From Bifidobacterium scardovii JCM 12489 = DSM 13734 (GTDB lineage Bacteria; Actinomycetota; Actinomycetes; Actinomycetales; Bifidobacteriaceae): a stretch of DNA of 64,000 nucleotides. The stretch is from NCBI RefSeq assembly GCF_001042635.1, contig NZ_AP012331.1, positions 3,038,001-3,102,000 on the forward strand. The letters run 5' to 3'. Positions 59,628-64,000 of the stretch are shown piece by piece (the first letter of the stretch is position 1; each line of letters starts with the position of its first letter). The notes beneath the pieces are model-generated. The model saw only the letters and a list, made by a program, of their open reading frames with translations. It was not told the origin of the DNA and did not search any database. The position numbers and the translations under genes are program-made.

Positions 59628-60680
59628 CTAGAACACGAACATGAACAGCTTGGCCATGGCGTAGCTGATGATGCCGCACCCGGGGAAGGTGAACACCCAG
59701 GTGAGCATCATGTCGCGGACCACGCCGAAGTTGATCGCGGAGAGGCGCCGCACCGCGCCGACGCCCATGATGGCGCTGGTCTTGGTATGCGTCGTGGAAA
59801 CGGGGATGCCAAGCACGGTCATGACCAGCAGGCACAGCGCGCTCGACAGGTCGGCGGAGAATCCCTGGTACTTTTCCAGCCGGACCATGTCCTGCCCCAC
59901 GGATTTGATGATCCGCTCCCCGCCGACGCTGGTGCCGACGCCCATGATGACGCTGCACAGCGCCATCAGCCACAGGGGGATGACCACGCCGGCCACGCTC
60001 GACTGGCCGTTGCAGAAGGCCACGCCGAGAAACAGCACGCCGATGAACTTCTGCCCGTCCTGCGCGCCATGCATGAAACTCATCGCCGCCGCGCCGACGA
60101 TCTGCGCATACGTGAAGACCCCGTTGGTCCGACGGCGATCCATGCCGGCGCAGATCAGGGTCACGATCCTGCAGACCAGCCAGCCGATGCCGAAGCCCAG
60201 CAGCAGGCTCGCCACCAAGCCGTAGATCACCTTGACCCACTCCCCCATGTTGATGCCGCCGATGCCGCCCTGAATGGCGATCGCGGCGCCGGACAGACCG
60301 GCGATCAGGCTGTGGCTTTCCGAAGTCGGGATGCCCAGCAGCGACGCGCCGACGCTGTAGACGACGATGGAGAACAGCGCCGCGCACAATGCGATGAGCG
60401 CCGCATGCGCGTCACCGCCGAAATCGACCATGTTGCTGATGGTGGACGCGACGGACGCGTTGAACTGGGTCATGAGAAACACGCCCAGGAAGTTGAAGAT
60501 CGCGGCCATGATCACGGCCGAACGCACGCGCATGCATCGCGTGGTCACGCAGGTGGCGATGGCGTTGGGCGCGTCGGTCCATCCGTTGACGAAGATCACT
60601 CCCAGCGTCAATAACGTTGTGACGGCCAAGGCCGGGTTCGACAACACCTGTTGGATAAAATGCGCTAGGGACACGTCCAA
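59628..60680 (-). CDS. pit: Inorganic phosphate transporter, Pit family
   Basis: 350-aa low-affinity phosphate permease with about ten membrane segments and the two Pit repeats: VNGWTDAPNAIATCVTTR near the N-terminus and MSFMHGAQDGQKFIGV in the second half; GIPTSESHSLIAGLSGA and GIPVSTTHTKTSAIMGVG are also diagnostic. The start is uncertain: TTG 60680 gives the family N-terminus, GTG 60674 is the alternative, and no ATG fits. A promoter with a strong inverted repeat lies upstream. Confidence 0.92.
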   Translation of the reverse strand: MDVSLAHFIQQVLSNPALAVTTLLTLGVIFVNGWTDAPNAIATCVTTRCMRVRSAVIMAAIFNFLGVFLMTQFNASVASTISNMVDFGGDAHAALIALCAALFSIVVYSVGASLLGIPTSESHSLIAGLSGAAIAIQGGIGGINMGEWVKVIYGLVASLLLGFGIGWLVCRIVTLICAGMDRRRTNGVFTYAQIVGAAAMSFMHGAQDGQKFIGVLFLGVAFCNGQSSVAGVVIPLWLMALCSVIMGVGTSVGGERIIKSVGQDMVRLEKYQGFSADLSSALCLLVMTVLGIPVSTTHTKTSAIMGVGAVRRLSAINFGVVRDMMLTWVFTFPGCGIISYAMAKLFMFVF

Positions 60681-60727
60681 GTGAAATCATCACCTTCTTC
60701 TTCGAGGGGCGAAAGGATGCCACATCG

Positions 60728-60761
60728 ATTGTATCCGATGAATAGCTACGTAGCTTTCATC
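60728..60761 (-). promoter_or_regulatory. Promoter and inverted-repeat operator of pit
   Basis: TACAAT (60728-60733, minus strand) is preceded in the -35 area by the palindrome AGCTACGTAGCT (60744-60755), itself flanked by GATGAA and TTCATC (60737-60742, 60756-60761). This looks like an activator or repressor site, perhaps phosphate-linked. Confidence 0.5.
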
Positions 60762-60858
60762 ATGGCATAGCGCGTGTTCGAGGACGTTCGGGGATGTTCG
60801 GAGGTTCCTGCGATGTTTTTCGGGGGTGTGTGGCTGCCTGGGCCGCCGGTGCGGACGG

Positions 60859-61599
60859 TCAGAGCACGCCGGACGCCAGATCGTTGACCAGCATCCACTG
60901 GCGCAGATCGGCGAACTCGTCCATACTCACCGAATGGTCGAGGCCACGGTAGCTCTTCGCGGTCAGCCACGTGTGCTCCTCCATCCAGGCGGACGCGGCG
61001 TACAGCTCGTATTTGGGAATCACCGTATCGTTCTGGCCGTAGCCGAAGAATACGGGGATCTGCCCGTCGAGCCGGTCATCGGCGGGGGCGGTCCCAGCTA
61101 CGTTCCCGGACGCCACGAATCCGGACAGCGACACCGCCGCGCGGTACCGTTCGGGATGCACGCGCAGCAGATGCACGGCCAGCAGGCCGCCTTGGGAGAA
61201 CCCCAGCGGCACCACATCGCGGTCCTCGGGAATATTGTCCATGACCCAGCGGTCGATGGCGCTTGCCGCGGCAAACGCGTCGCGATCCAGATCATCGCCG
61301 GAGGGCACCGCATCATGGAACCACGAGTAGGCTCCCGGCATGAATCCGCCTTCCTGCAGCACCAACGGCGCACGCAACGCGGCATAGTCGTTGTACGGCG
61401 CGATGTAGCGCATCATGCCGCCGAGATCCTCCTCATTGGAGCCCCAGCCGTGCAGGCACAGGAACATCGGGCGCGTGGGATTGGCCTTGCCGCCGCCCCT
61501 CGAATACTCGGCGTGGGTGACGGTCAGTGGCTCGCCGAATCGCCCCGGTACCACCGTGGACTCGCGGCCGATGAGATCATTCGTTGCGTCTTCGCTCAT
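60859..61599 (-). CDS. Carboxylesterase/phospholipase-like alpha/beta-hydrolase
   Basis: 246-aa cytoplasmic hydrolase of the YpfH/phospholipase-carboxylesterase type. The LCLHGWGSNEEDL loop forms the oxyanion site; the nucleophile is Ser135 in GFSQGG; the acid is in GQNDTVIP and the His in GLDHSVSMDE. Substrate unknown. ATG 61599 has no Shine-Dalgarno site; TATATT lies 7 nt before it, consistent with a leaderless mRNA. Confidence 0.9.
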   Translation of the reverse strand: MSEDATNDLIGRESTVVPGRFGEPLTVTHAEYSRGGGKANPTRPMFLCLHGWGSNEEDLGGMMRYIAPYNDYAALRAPLVLQEGGFMPGAYSWFHDAVPSGDDLDRDAFAAASAIDRWVMDNIPEDRDVVPLGFSQGGLLAVHLLRVHPERYRAAVSLSGFVASGNVAGTAPADDRLDGQIPVFFGYGQNDTVIPKYELYAASAWMEEHTWLTAKSYRGLDHSVSMDEFADLRQWMLVNDLASGVL

Positions 61600-61606
61600 A
61601 CCGCCC

Positions 61607-61612
61607 AATATA
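61607..61612 (-). promoter_or_regulatory. -10 element of a leaderless promoter (carboxylesterase)
   Basis: TATATT on the minus strand ends 7 nt before ATG 61599. Confidence 0.55.
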
Positions 61613-61824
61613 CGTCAGCCACGGCACCGCGCGCATCGGATCGACCATGATGTGCGTCACACCATCCCGGGTTTGCGAAACGCATGTCGCACGCCATGGA
61701 GCCGGCGGCGGCGCCAACGTCACCGCATGCCGCCCTCGGTCCCGGGTCTCGCTGCGCGAGCCAGCTCCCGCCGGCGGGAGCATGCCAATCCCGACGCGGC
61801 AGAGCCGTGCACAGCGAAGCCGGG

Positions 61825-61929
61825 CAAAAAAGAACCCCGGCGGGGTCACCGCCGGGGAGAGAAAGGAGAGAGAAGAAGAAAGGGTTCAATTGTCGGGAAC
61901 TGCTGCGGTTCCTGTTCAGCTCTTGCTGA
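61825..61929 (-). ncRNA. Candidate small RNA with C/U-only linker and terminator
   Basis: A promoter (TTGCGT, 17 bp, CATAAT at 61935-61963) points into a short unit that ends in an intrinsic terminator. The predicted RNA of about 105 nt starts with CAGC-AAGA-GCUG and GGAAC-CGCAGCA-GUUCC hairpins. A 27-nt stretch of only C and U follows (61858-61884), including CUCCUUU, complementary to AAAGGAG Shine-Dalgarno sites. The terminator stem is CCCCGGCGG/CCGCCGGGG with a U-run. No credible reading frame. It resembles trans-acting sRNAs that block ribosome binding; not recognised as a known family. Confidence 0.6.
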
Positions 61930-61934
61930 CAGTT

Positions 61935-61963
61935 ATTATGTAACCATCCCATCCTTGACGCAA
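61935..61963 (-). promoter_or_regulatory. Promoter of the candidate small RNA
   Basis: TTGCGT (61958-61963) and CATAAT (61935-61940) on the minus strand with exactly 17 bp between. The rest of the gap up to the dcd gene (61964-62215) shows no gene. Confidence 0.65.
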
Positions 61964-62215
61964 TGCTGGTTTTCTCTGAGAACTTCCTGAGAATTATGGC
62001 GCTGTTGTGTGCATCCGCCGGAGGGAGCCGCGATTCCGGCCGGCAGGGCCGACCGATCCCCGCACCGCCGCGTACGGGGCAGCCCCTACGACCCACCCCC
62101 GCCACACGTATACGCCACCCCACCGCGCGTGCGATGCATATGCAAATAGGCATGCATCGGTAGACTGGAGCACAGATACATGGAAGCGCACATCGCGCAT
62201 ACGTAAGGAGTCGTT

Positions 62216-62797
62216 ATGCTGCTGTCTGATCGCGACATTCTCGCCGCCAAACGCGACGGCCATATCTCGCTTGACCCGTGGACCCCGGAAATGGTGCAGC
62301 CGGCCTCGATCGATGTGAGGCTCGACCGGTTCTTCCGCCTGTTCAACAATCATGCGTACACGTACGTCGATCCGGCCGAGAATCAGGGCGCGCTGACCGA
62401 ACAGTTCGAAGTGGCCCCGAATGAGCCGTGGATCCTGCATCCCGGCGAGTTCGCCCTCGGATCGACCTGGGAGTACGTCAAGCTCGACGCGACGGTGGCC
62501 GCCCGTCTGGAGGGCAAGAGCTCGCTGGGGCGCCTCGGCATTCTGACCCACTCGACCGCCGGCTTCATCGATCCGGGATTCGAGGGGCACATCACGCTGG
62601 AGCTGTCGAATGTCTCGACGCTGCCGGTCAAGCTGTGGCCGGGCATGAAGATCGGGCAGATGTGCTTCTTCCAGCTCAGCTCCCCCGCCGAGCACCCCTA
62701 CGGGTCCAAGGGGACCGGATCGCATTATCAGGGCCAGCGCGGCCCGACCCCGAGCCGTTCATACGTGAACTTCTACCGTGCCGAGGTCAACGACTGA
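62216..62797 (+). CDS. dcd: dCTP deaminase
   Basis: 193-aa enzyme deaminating dCTP to supply dUTP or, in the bifunctional actinobacterial form, dUMP. Motifs: [27 protein letters not shown] and [18 protein letters not shown] with Glu129 as the likely catalytic residue. ATG 62216 follows AAGGAG. Single gene, ended by a strong terminator. Confidence 0.95.
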
Positions 62798-62840
62798 TCG
62801 ACGCCGGGTAAACAAGTACAGCAAGCACTGAACCCATAGC

Positions 62841-62873
62841 AATCCGGCTCCCCTCAGGGAGGGGAGCCGGATT
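62841..62873. terminator. Bidirectional terminator between dcd and the P-type ATPase
   Basis: A perfect 15-bp stem (arm AATCCGGCTCCCCTC) with a 3-nt loop stands between convergent genes. The same stem core occurs at about 38420-38442. Confidence 0.85.
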
Positions 62874-62892
62874 CATTTCGCATGGCGTGCCG

Positions 62893-64000
62893 TTAGGCGA
62901 CCACGCCATTCTTCTTGTCGATCGCGCGCATGATCGCCTTGTAGATTTCCGAGGCGATGAGCACCACCGCGGCAAGGCAGATGCACTCGACCCAAGCCCA
63001 CGGGCCGAGCGGCGTGGTGCCGAACGCGGAGTTGAGGAACGGCACGTAGATCACCACGAGCTGCAGCACGACGGACAGGCCGATCGCACCCCACAGCCAC
63101 TTGTTGGAGAACAGGCCGACGAATGCGGACTGACGGGACGAGCGCGAGGCGATCGCGTTGAACAGCTGCGCGAACACGAGGATCGTGAAGCCCATCGTGC
63201 GGGCCTCGGTCATCTGGAATTCGTGGCTTCCGCCGATCGAGCGATCGGTGAACAGGCCGCCTTCCAGGTGCATGTCCATGCCGATCAGCGTGACGGCGGC
63301 CATGATGATGCCGATGAAGGCGATGTCGATCCACATGTCCCTGTCGATCACGCGATCGGTGAGCTTGCGCGGCTTACGGGCCATCACGTCGTCGGTCTGC
63401 GGGTCGACGCCCATCGCGAGCGCGGGGGCCGCGTCGGTGAGCAGGTTGATCCACAGCAGCTGCGTGGCGAGCAGCGGCACGGTGACGCCTTCGGAGCCGG
63501 GCTGGGTGATGCCCATCACGCCGGCGAGCATGACGCCGCCGAACACGGTGAACACCTCGCCCACGTTGGAGCTGAGCAGGTAGCGCAGGAACTTGCGGAT
63601 GTTGTCGAAGATCACGCGGCCTTCACGCACGGCGGCGACGATGGTGGAGAAGTTGTCGTCCGCGAGGATCATCTTCGCGGATTCCTTGGTCACCTCGGTG
63701 CCGGTGATGCCCATGGCCACGCCGATGTCGGCGGACTTGACCGCCGGGGCGTCGTTCACGCCGTCGCCGGTCATGGCGGCGATGTTGCCCTGGCGCTGCA
63801 GCGACTCCACGATCTTGAGCTTGTGCTCGGGGGCCACGCGCGCGTACACGGACACTTCGGAGGTGGCCTTGTCGAAGGCGGCCTCGTCGGGCAGGGCGTC
63901 GAGCTGGTCGCCGGTCAGGGCCTTGCCGCCCTTGGCGATGATGCCCAGATCGGAGGCGATGCGGGCCGCGGTCAGCGGGTGGTCGCCGGTGATCATCACC
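62893..64000 (-). CDS. P-type cation-transporting ATPase, probably Ca2+ type (5' truncated by window)
   Basis: About 369 C-terminal residues are visible; the N-terminal part lies beyond base 64000. TGDHPLTAARIASDLGI belongs to the end of the nucleotide/P domain, MTGDGVNDAPAVKSADIGVA is the hinge motif, and six membrane segments follow, including LLWINLLTDAAPALAMGVDP, which with the downstream FNAIASR is typical of IIA Ca2+ pumps (PMR1/SERCA-like). The phosphorylation motif DKTGT is outside the window. Confidence 0.93.
   Translation of the reverse strand, partial: VMITGDHPLTAARIASDLGIIAKGGKALTGDQLDALPDEAAFDKATSEVSVYARVAPEHKLKIVESLQRQGNIAAMTGDGVNDAPAVKSADIGVAMGITGTEVTKESAKMILADDNFSTIVAAVREGRVIFDNIRKFLRYLLSSNVGEVFTVFGGVMLAGVMGITQPGSEGVTVPLLATQLLWINLLTDAAPALAMGVDPQTDDVMARKPRKLTDRVIDRDMWIDIAFIGIIMAAVTLIGMDMHLEGGLFTDRSIGGSHEFQMTEARTMGFTILVFAQLFNAIASRSSRQSAFVGLFSNKWLWGAIGLSVVLQLVVIYVPFLNSAFGTTPLGPWAWVECICLAAVVLIASEIYKAIMRAIDKKNGVVA

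Follow-up and report, generated by a model that had tools for sequence, protein, structure and literature searches.

The minus strand of positions 61825-61963 of the window, i.e. of the whole stretch of 64,000 nucleotides of Bifidobacterium scardovii DNA that was analysed, very probably carries a real small-RNA (sRNA) gene, judged by its sequence and that of its relatives, and this gene has several similar counterparts throughout the bifidobacteria. The computations reveal an sRNA family with a common structure, several copies and promoter repeats which are shared between the copies and which occur in similar form at phoP. It is likely that the sRNA is switched on by a stress-sensing regulator. 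We consider it reasonably probable that this is a stand-alone sRNA from a multi-copy, CU-rich family, that a PhoP-type regulator turns the copies on, and that the linker pairs with purine-rich translation starts and blocks ribosome loading.

The locus reads on the minus strand as given in a preliminary description made from the sequence alone: TTGCGT, 17 bp, CATAAT, two small hairpins, a run of 27 nt of only C and U, and a terminator with a T-run (Table 1). That description proposed an unannotated sRNA gene with an open pyrimidine linker able to pair with purine-rich starts, and this proposal has held up: the unit is conserved and falls into no Rfam family. The minimum-energy fold (-31.7 kcal/mol) consists of two 5-bp hairpins, the open linker and the terminator, and the centroid fold agrees with it on the terminator. 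Compared to shuffled sequences, the fold energy is only modestly low (z -1.85; 7 of 200 shuffles are equally low). Five terminator-like sites occur in 60000-64000 (2.2 expected), three of them being overlapping versions of the sRNA terminator, which has the most GC pairs of all. As fold energy alone is unremarkable and the -35 region is poor, it is the comparative evidence that decides. When the whole window was searched with Rfam 15 at the gathering cut-off, only rRNAs were found and the sRNA was assigned to no family. With E values up to 10, the best match in 61700-62100 is anti-hemB (17.4 bits versus a cut-off of 49.5), and a search of 13 member loci returned two tRNAs and nothing else.

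Table 1. Features of the sRNA locus and of the predicted transcript (window coordinates).
Feature	Position	Strand	Basis and remarks
Direct repeats TTCTCAG-N4-TTCTCAG plus two weaker half-sites, reaching the -35 zone	61951..61994	-	Alignment and PWM of close members; proposed PhoP-type response-regulator site
TTGCGT at the -35 position	61958-61963	-	17 bp from CATAAT
-10 box CATAAT within the conserved TTAYATAA zone; no conserved -35 hexamer	61935..61940	-	Sequence and alignment
Predicted sRNA, ~100 nt	61829..61930	-	5' end inferred from -10 box, 3' end from terminator; covariance match and fold
Hairpin 1 (UCAGC-AAGA-GCUGA)	61916..61929	-	Fold; pairing in 94.9% of cells; 2 of 5 pairs with double changes
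Hairpin 2 (GGAAC ... GUUCC)	61896..61912	-	Fold; pairing in 95.7% of cells; 3 of 4 pairs with double changes
Conserved single-stranded ACAAUUGAA	61885..61893	-	AAYUGAA in 78/84 (close members) and 50/56 (distant members)
C/U-only linker, 27 nt	61858..61884	-	UUCUUC core shared by all 140 members that were examined; CUCCUUU mostly among close members
Intrinsic terminator, stem of 9 GC pairs plus T-run	61826..61857	-	Sequence scan; compensatory C-G to U-A at one pair in 12 of 35 sequences

The unit goes beyond chance because it is conserved. By blastn, the 141-bp stretch has matches in 75 of the 112 genomes of the genus and is single-copy in its own genome (3,158,347 bp). A covariance search of other Bifidobacterium genomes, which had been suggested as a check in the preliminary description, bore the sRNA out, with covarying hairpins and with matches to the model (R1) in 111 of the 112 genomes at E values up to 0.01. 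All 105 genomes with at least 90% completeness and at most 5% contamination are among those matched, and the sole genome without a match (G094) is 74% complete. Most genomes of the genus have 2-10 matches; a single one is found in G022 and G096. At the locus itself, the match covers window positions 61825-61932 with 125.3 bits, this sequence being among those from which the model was built. Family-wide, 129 of 151 genomes and 9 of 16 genera are matched, one of the genera by a single match with an E value of 0.0093. A draw of 297 genomes from the order served as negative control against a model that fires on any C/U tract followed by a terminator, and all 21 genomes that matched are from the same family. 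The exact 24-mer of the linker, which tests for the close form only, was found in 28 contig stretches among 84,980 species genomes, and all 28 are titled Bifidobacterium.

When 84 members were oriented and aligned, the C/U linker proved to be one of the best-conserved parts. For a non-redundant set, 33 of the 84 members were left out, and 16 of the remaining 51 were left out of the alignment (A1). For the 35 members analysed, RNAalifold returned the same three helices as the fold of the single sequence. Double changes occur at 7 of 18 pairs (shuffled alignments: 4.6, with 17 of 500 reaching the value), and the cells changed on both sides number 32 (shuffled: 10.4, with 0 of 500 reaching the value). 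While 95.9% of the cells are paired, sliding the partners leaves at most 54.8%. Neighbouring duplicates were seen by blastn in two genomes: G061 has two near-identical copies at a distance of 24 kb (L034, L035), and two copies in G088 (L059) are separated by about 2 kb.

In its own genome, the family is represented by five model matches at E values up to 0.01 (125.3, 60.1, 52.2, 35.8 and 28.6 bits), which are located in differing gene contexts. By eye, the five copies have AYAAYUKAA, a tract containing UUCUUC and the terminator in common. Two further matches, with E values of 0.2 and 1.1, were not counted as copies. Two of the paralogs are found 6 kb apart on opposite strands. Both are within 15 kb of amtB, which by eye is preceded by a GlnR-like box (the regions concerned are G000:C1:260046-266357 and 275058-276278).

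Two promoter elements had been proposed initially. CATAAT is part of the conserved TTAYATAA zone. TTGCGT is a poor -35 box. It fits the consensus at only 3 of 6 positions, which is why a promoter scan did not list the site, and only its TT is kept in relatives (46/78 and 67/78; 6 of 84 rows were left out of the promoter table for gaps). From its sequence, the promoter looks activator-dependent. In close members, the upstream region shows AG dinucleotides spaced by 11, 10 and 12 bp, a series that reaches the -35 zone and is followed by TTAYATAA. Direct repeats TTYTCAG with the strict 4-bp spacer (7+4 spacing) are restricted to the first two half-sites, the later steps being 10 and 12 bp and thus one base too short and one too long for the register. 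These repeats had been missed in the preliminary description, as had the candidate response regulator and the multi-copy nature of the family.

A single exact match to the double repeat TTYTCAG-N4-TTYTCAG is present in the own genome. In the genus, there are 70 matches in 52 of 112 genomes, compared to 5 for the reversed control; of 30 such loci that were opened, 14 are family sRNAs and 16 are located at or in other genes. A stricter repeat pattern led to no site beyond the sRNA locus. When one mismatch was permitted, 3 matches were obtained in the own genome, and L086 is located in an apparent CRISPR array. As the RNA model contains no promoter, the promoter provides a separate test. A repeat PWM, for which 1 of the 84 members was left out, scores 45 of 47 model-only members above all 958 random control positions; the 47 were chosen among the matches listed and share descent with the members behind the PWM. 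No repeat scores above the controls in 3 of 56 members. One of them, L090, had itself been detected through the exact repeat, which the search frame did not catch. The five own copies score 53.8, 20.9, 14.5, 18.6 and 14.0, while the best other place in the window reaches -5.6.

Similar repeats were encountered upstream of several other genes. A one-mismatch repeat (L085:1501-1518) precedes a gene with a Pfam Sulfatase domain, LTA-synthase-like by reading, which is a possible further target of the regulator. A repeat-like site (TATTCAGGGAACAATCAGG, score 5.5) upstream of an apparent response regulator gene (L275:13520-13630) suggests a regulator cascade. The top repeat score among the 303 sampled gene starts (9.5) belongs to a minus-strand start near 2492 of the reversed stretch L272, and the gene downstream reads as an acyl-CoA synthetase. 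In three genomes (L097, L098, L106), a repeat with other spacing to the -10 box is found upstream of a small RelA/SpoT-type synthetase-like gene.

A pattern of 7-bp motifs in tandem, separated by 4 bp, is in keeping with OmpR-type regulators, and the own genome has 8 matches to the OmpR-type regulator domain. By sequence similarity, one of these proteins (L122) is the PhoP ortholog, attaining 282 bits with PhoP from Mycobacterium tuberculosis versus 160 bits with PrrA, the next other regulator. All nine genomes examined have repeats upstream of their best phoP match, with scores of 5.2-26.3 against a background of 4 in about 128,000 window positions scoring at least 4, a background that does not cover AT-rich genomes. 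Six of the nine sites have the same orientation and are close to the start; three are opposite, including one that lies 124 nt upstream. The best-matching protein is only 46-47% identical in two genomes of this set, G123 and G135. The own phoP site, in which three 11-bp repeats can be read, scores 16.1, while among the 303 sampled gene starts none reaches 10 and two reach 5. A strict 12-of-14 motif scan of the 8 own OmpR-type regulator loci found nothing, and the site at the mycobacterial-PhoP-like gene was later found by the PWM. For the other two regulators common to all six sRNA-positive genomes tested, the best upstream scores are below 4, except for one AT-rich match at 8.5. According to the accessible part of PMC4832192, PhoP sites consist of 7-bp TCACAGC direct repeats with a strict 4-bp spacer, and three or four repeats are bound more tightly. 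The bifidobacterial half-site TC[T/C/A]CAG is similar, not identical, to TCACAGC, and the first two half-sites keep the 7+4 register. A helix which we read as the recognition helix (DAAIVESYISYLRKK) is identical in 7 of the 9 PhoP-like proteins, including all six from sRNA-positive genomes. By manual alignment, two contact residues differ from M. tuberculosis PhoP, which may explain the relaxed third base of the half-site. A PhoP-like gene is also present in all three sRNA-negative genomes tested. Two other leads were abandoned: the phosphate-locus PhoP (L118, beside a pstS-like gene) has no close ortholog in four of the six sRNA-positive genomes (G058, G104, G113, G172), and MprA gave nothing usable.

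It is quite unlikely, in our estimate, that GlnR or another OmpR-type protein rather than PhoP is the regulator, so that the sRNA would answer nitrogen status. A GlnR-like gene (L117) tracks the sRNA exactly across nine genomes, being present in the six sRNA-positive and absent from the three sRNA-negative ones, but the latter are reduced genomes of 0.8-1.1 Mb. The L117 protein attains 246 bits with 8hig, which we take to be GlnR, and 88 bits with 4o1h, which is listed as GlnR. Nevertheless, an upstream repeat score above 4 is found for only one of six GlnR-like genes (8.5, AT-rich) versus nine of nine phoP-like genes, and the GlnR-like sequence upstream of the own amtB (GTAAC..GTAACttgttgAAAAC, by eye) is unlike the TTYTCAG repeats. 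The GlnR box forms used for this comparison were taken from the part of PMC10704036 at hand.

In the preliminary description, CUCCUUU was the key element of the linker. This sequence is found in 58 of 84 close but only 8 of 56 distant members, whereas UUCUUC is present in all of them (84/84 and 56/56). As UUCUUC is universal and CUCCUUU mainly restricted to close members, we regard AAYUGAA plus UUCUUCUCUC as the conserved core. AAYUGAA directly precedes the C/U tract and is kept in most members; no role was found for it. The linker, which is open in the fold, binds gene starts better than internal sites by 3.4 kcal/mol (303 starts from the window plus 400 kb, called roughly by an SD-favouring rule; of 308 genes called, 5 were dropped because they lay too close to the end of a stretch). 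Shuffled linkers prefer starts about equally, with 3, 13, 11 and 1 of 16 being at least as strong for copies 1-4, the copies covered by this comparison. Generic anti-SD binding follows from the composition of the linker and thus does not explain why the base order is kept. Target prediction shows a preference for starts that shuffled linkers largely share, and a weak signal-peptide bias was seen. Linker complementarity is stronger at genes with a signal peptide or lipoprotein signal (p 0.0012, 24 of 303 starts), as called by a simple home-made rule on rough gene calls. After filtering, which removed 140 of the 303 starts, including the surface protein that topped the unfiltered list, the bias has p 0.05 (18 of 163 starts), and 1 of 30 shuffled linkers shows one as large. 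By reading, the best linker matches in the sample include genes for solute-binding lipoproteins, for a surface protein and for a pilin-like protein. The target list is too weak to name one target, and the signal-peptide bias is a lead, not a result.

The tuning of SD-led genes in general by a ribosome-site mimic, in which the linker would act through CUCCUUUCU, similar to the 16S 3' end, had been suggested in the preliminary description and now seems very unlikely. The 16S 3' end in the window indeed reads CACCUCCUUU followed by CU, and AAAGGAG precedes an ATG at 8.2, 48.9 and 52.3 kb as claimed, at genes named in that description as GH31, oligo-1,6-glucosidase and raffinose-type binding protein. 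AAAGGAG occurs 8 times in the window, versus an expectation of 2.9, and 1 of 100 shuffles reaches this number; two of these occurrences only reflect the sRNA and the 16S 3' end read on the opposite strand. While CUCCUUUCU is kept in 56 of 84 close members, it is found in only 7 of 56 distant ones. AAAGGAG is found at only 7 of the 303 sampled starts, and the linker shows no clear preference over shuffled C/U tracts (3 of 16 for the window copy). The sRNA might alternatively bind protein, with AAYUGAA plus UUCUUCUCUC titrating a pyrimidine-binding protein instead of pairing with mRNA, which we rate as unlikely. The order of the tract is kept (UUCUUC in 84/84 and 56/56) even though order hardly matters for generic pairing with start sites, and several copies per genome would fit protein titration; yet pairing with few specific mRNAs would likewise preserve the order. 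That the locus is a cis-acting leader or attenuator of a downstream esterase gene, with transcription starting at the sRNA promoter and the terminator deciding on read-through, is highly improbable. In 53 of 84 close members an esterase is encoded downstream on the same strand, dcd is found upstream in opposite orientation in 56 of 84, and the extrapolated gap between sRNA and esterase is as short as 12 and 15 nt in two members. However, no esterase is present within the ~1.5 kb fetched around 31 of the 84, and where there is one, the gap ranges from 12 to more than 1000 nt (median 272), so that neither linkage nor distance is constant. In addition, the four further copies in the own genome lie in other contexts, and the two folds computed agree on the terminator.

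Returning to the stand-alone sRNA, one of five paralogs in its own genome and a member of a family represented in almost all genomes of the genus, we propose the following scenario. The tandem 7-bp half-sites, which lie shortly before the -10 box, would be bound by a response regulator, for which the ortholog of mycobacterial PhoP is the most likely candidate, and all copies would thereby be switched on together. The pyrimidine linker (AAYUGAA-CCYUUCUUCUCUC...) would stay open between the 5' hairpins and the terminator and pair with a limited number of mRNAs at their purine-rich translation starts; these mRNAs may be those of secreted proteins, lipoproteins and pili. This pairing would block ribosome loading. 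We infer transcription, PhoP as the regulator, the pairing, the repression and the class of targets. We know of no Hfq in bifidobacteria. It is conceivable, if doubtful, that a PhoP-type two-component system (TCS) in bifidobacteria has as its main output a genus-wide riboregulon of redundant CU-rich RNAs, usually 2-10 per genome, which under envelope or acid stress would silence surface proteins, solute-binding lipoproteins and pili. With its clear structure, a promoter motif and a candidate regulator, the sRNA family offers a directly testable entry to post-transcriptional control in bifidobacteria, and it may bear on how these gut bacteria adjust their surface proteins and sugar-binding lipoproteins.

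Genome G007, which we take to be from a B. animalis strain other than that of the published sRNA survey, has three model matches, but none in the 157 kb around the coordinates of the published B. animalis sRNAs. The survey covers B. animalis subsp. lactis, is the only one for the genus that we found in the open-licence literature and describes 11 intergenic sRNAs; in the available text, none of their neighbours is dcd or an esterase (PMC4338058). The published list does not appear to contain the sRNA described here. In the open-licence literature, we found no description of it and very little on post-transcriptional control in bifidobacteria.

The sRNA shares two traits with TCS-controlled multi-copy CU-rich sRNAs, namely several homologous copies per genome and response-regulator-type direct repeats (putative sites) in the promoters. 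By analogy, it appears closest in kind to the streptococcal csRNAs and to LhrC from Listeria, with regulator repeats, several copies, hairpins, an open pyrimidine stretch and a terminator. In excerpts of PMC3091779, csRNAs are described as part of the CiaRH regulon of streptococci, with several copies per genome across the genus, stem-loops, an open SD-complementary region and a terminator, and with the response-regulator repeat TTTAAG-N5-TTTAAG in their promoters. The bifidobacterial sRNA is alike in copy number, direct repeats, stem-loops, SD-complementary region and terminator. However, it comes from another phylum, its repeat is TTYTCAG-N4 and not the CiaR motif, and no sequence relation was seen. 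An anti-start-codon CAU is found in 53 of 61 csRNAs (same excerpts); for the bifidobacterial sRNA, the members with [CA]AUAAYUGAA, which is not a count of CAU alone, make up 13/84 of the close and 41/56 of the distant ones. LhrC1-5 from Listeria, as far as covered by the accessible part of PMC4132741, comprise five LisRK-dependent copies with CU-rich sites, which impede translation of the mRNA for the cell-wall protein LapB (lapB). The number of copies and the CU-rich site are alike, and the dependence of LhrC on the two-component system LisRK has its counterpart in the candidate regulator. LhrC has three redundant UCCC-type sites in loops and linker, whereas the sRNA from bifidobacteria, again from another phylum, has one C/U linker; sequence relation to LhrC was assessed through Rfam only. 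Mcr7 from M. tuberculosis, according to parts of PMC4038636, is encoded at the most prominent PhoP site of the genome and is predicted to pair at a ribosome site. In bifidobacteria, the sRNA is likewise found at a candidate PhoP site, with predicted pairing at ribosome sites. Mcr7 differs in being longer (~350 nt), predicted for the M. tuberculosis complex only and paired via a 33-nt loop, with no C/U linker mentioned in those parts. If our reading is true, the design seen in csRNAs and LhrC has arisen separately in actinobacteria, under a PhoP-type regulator.
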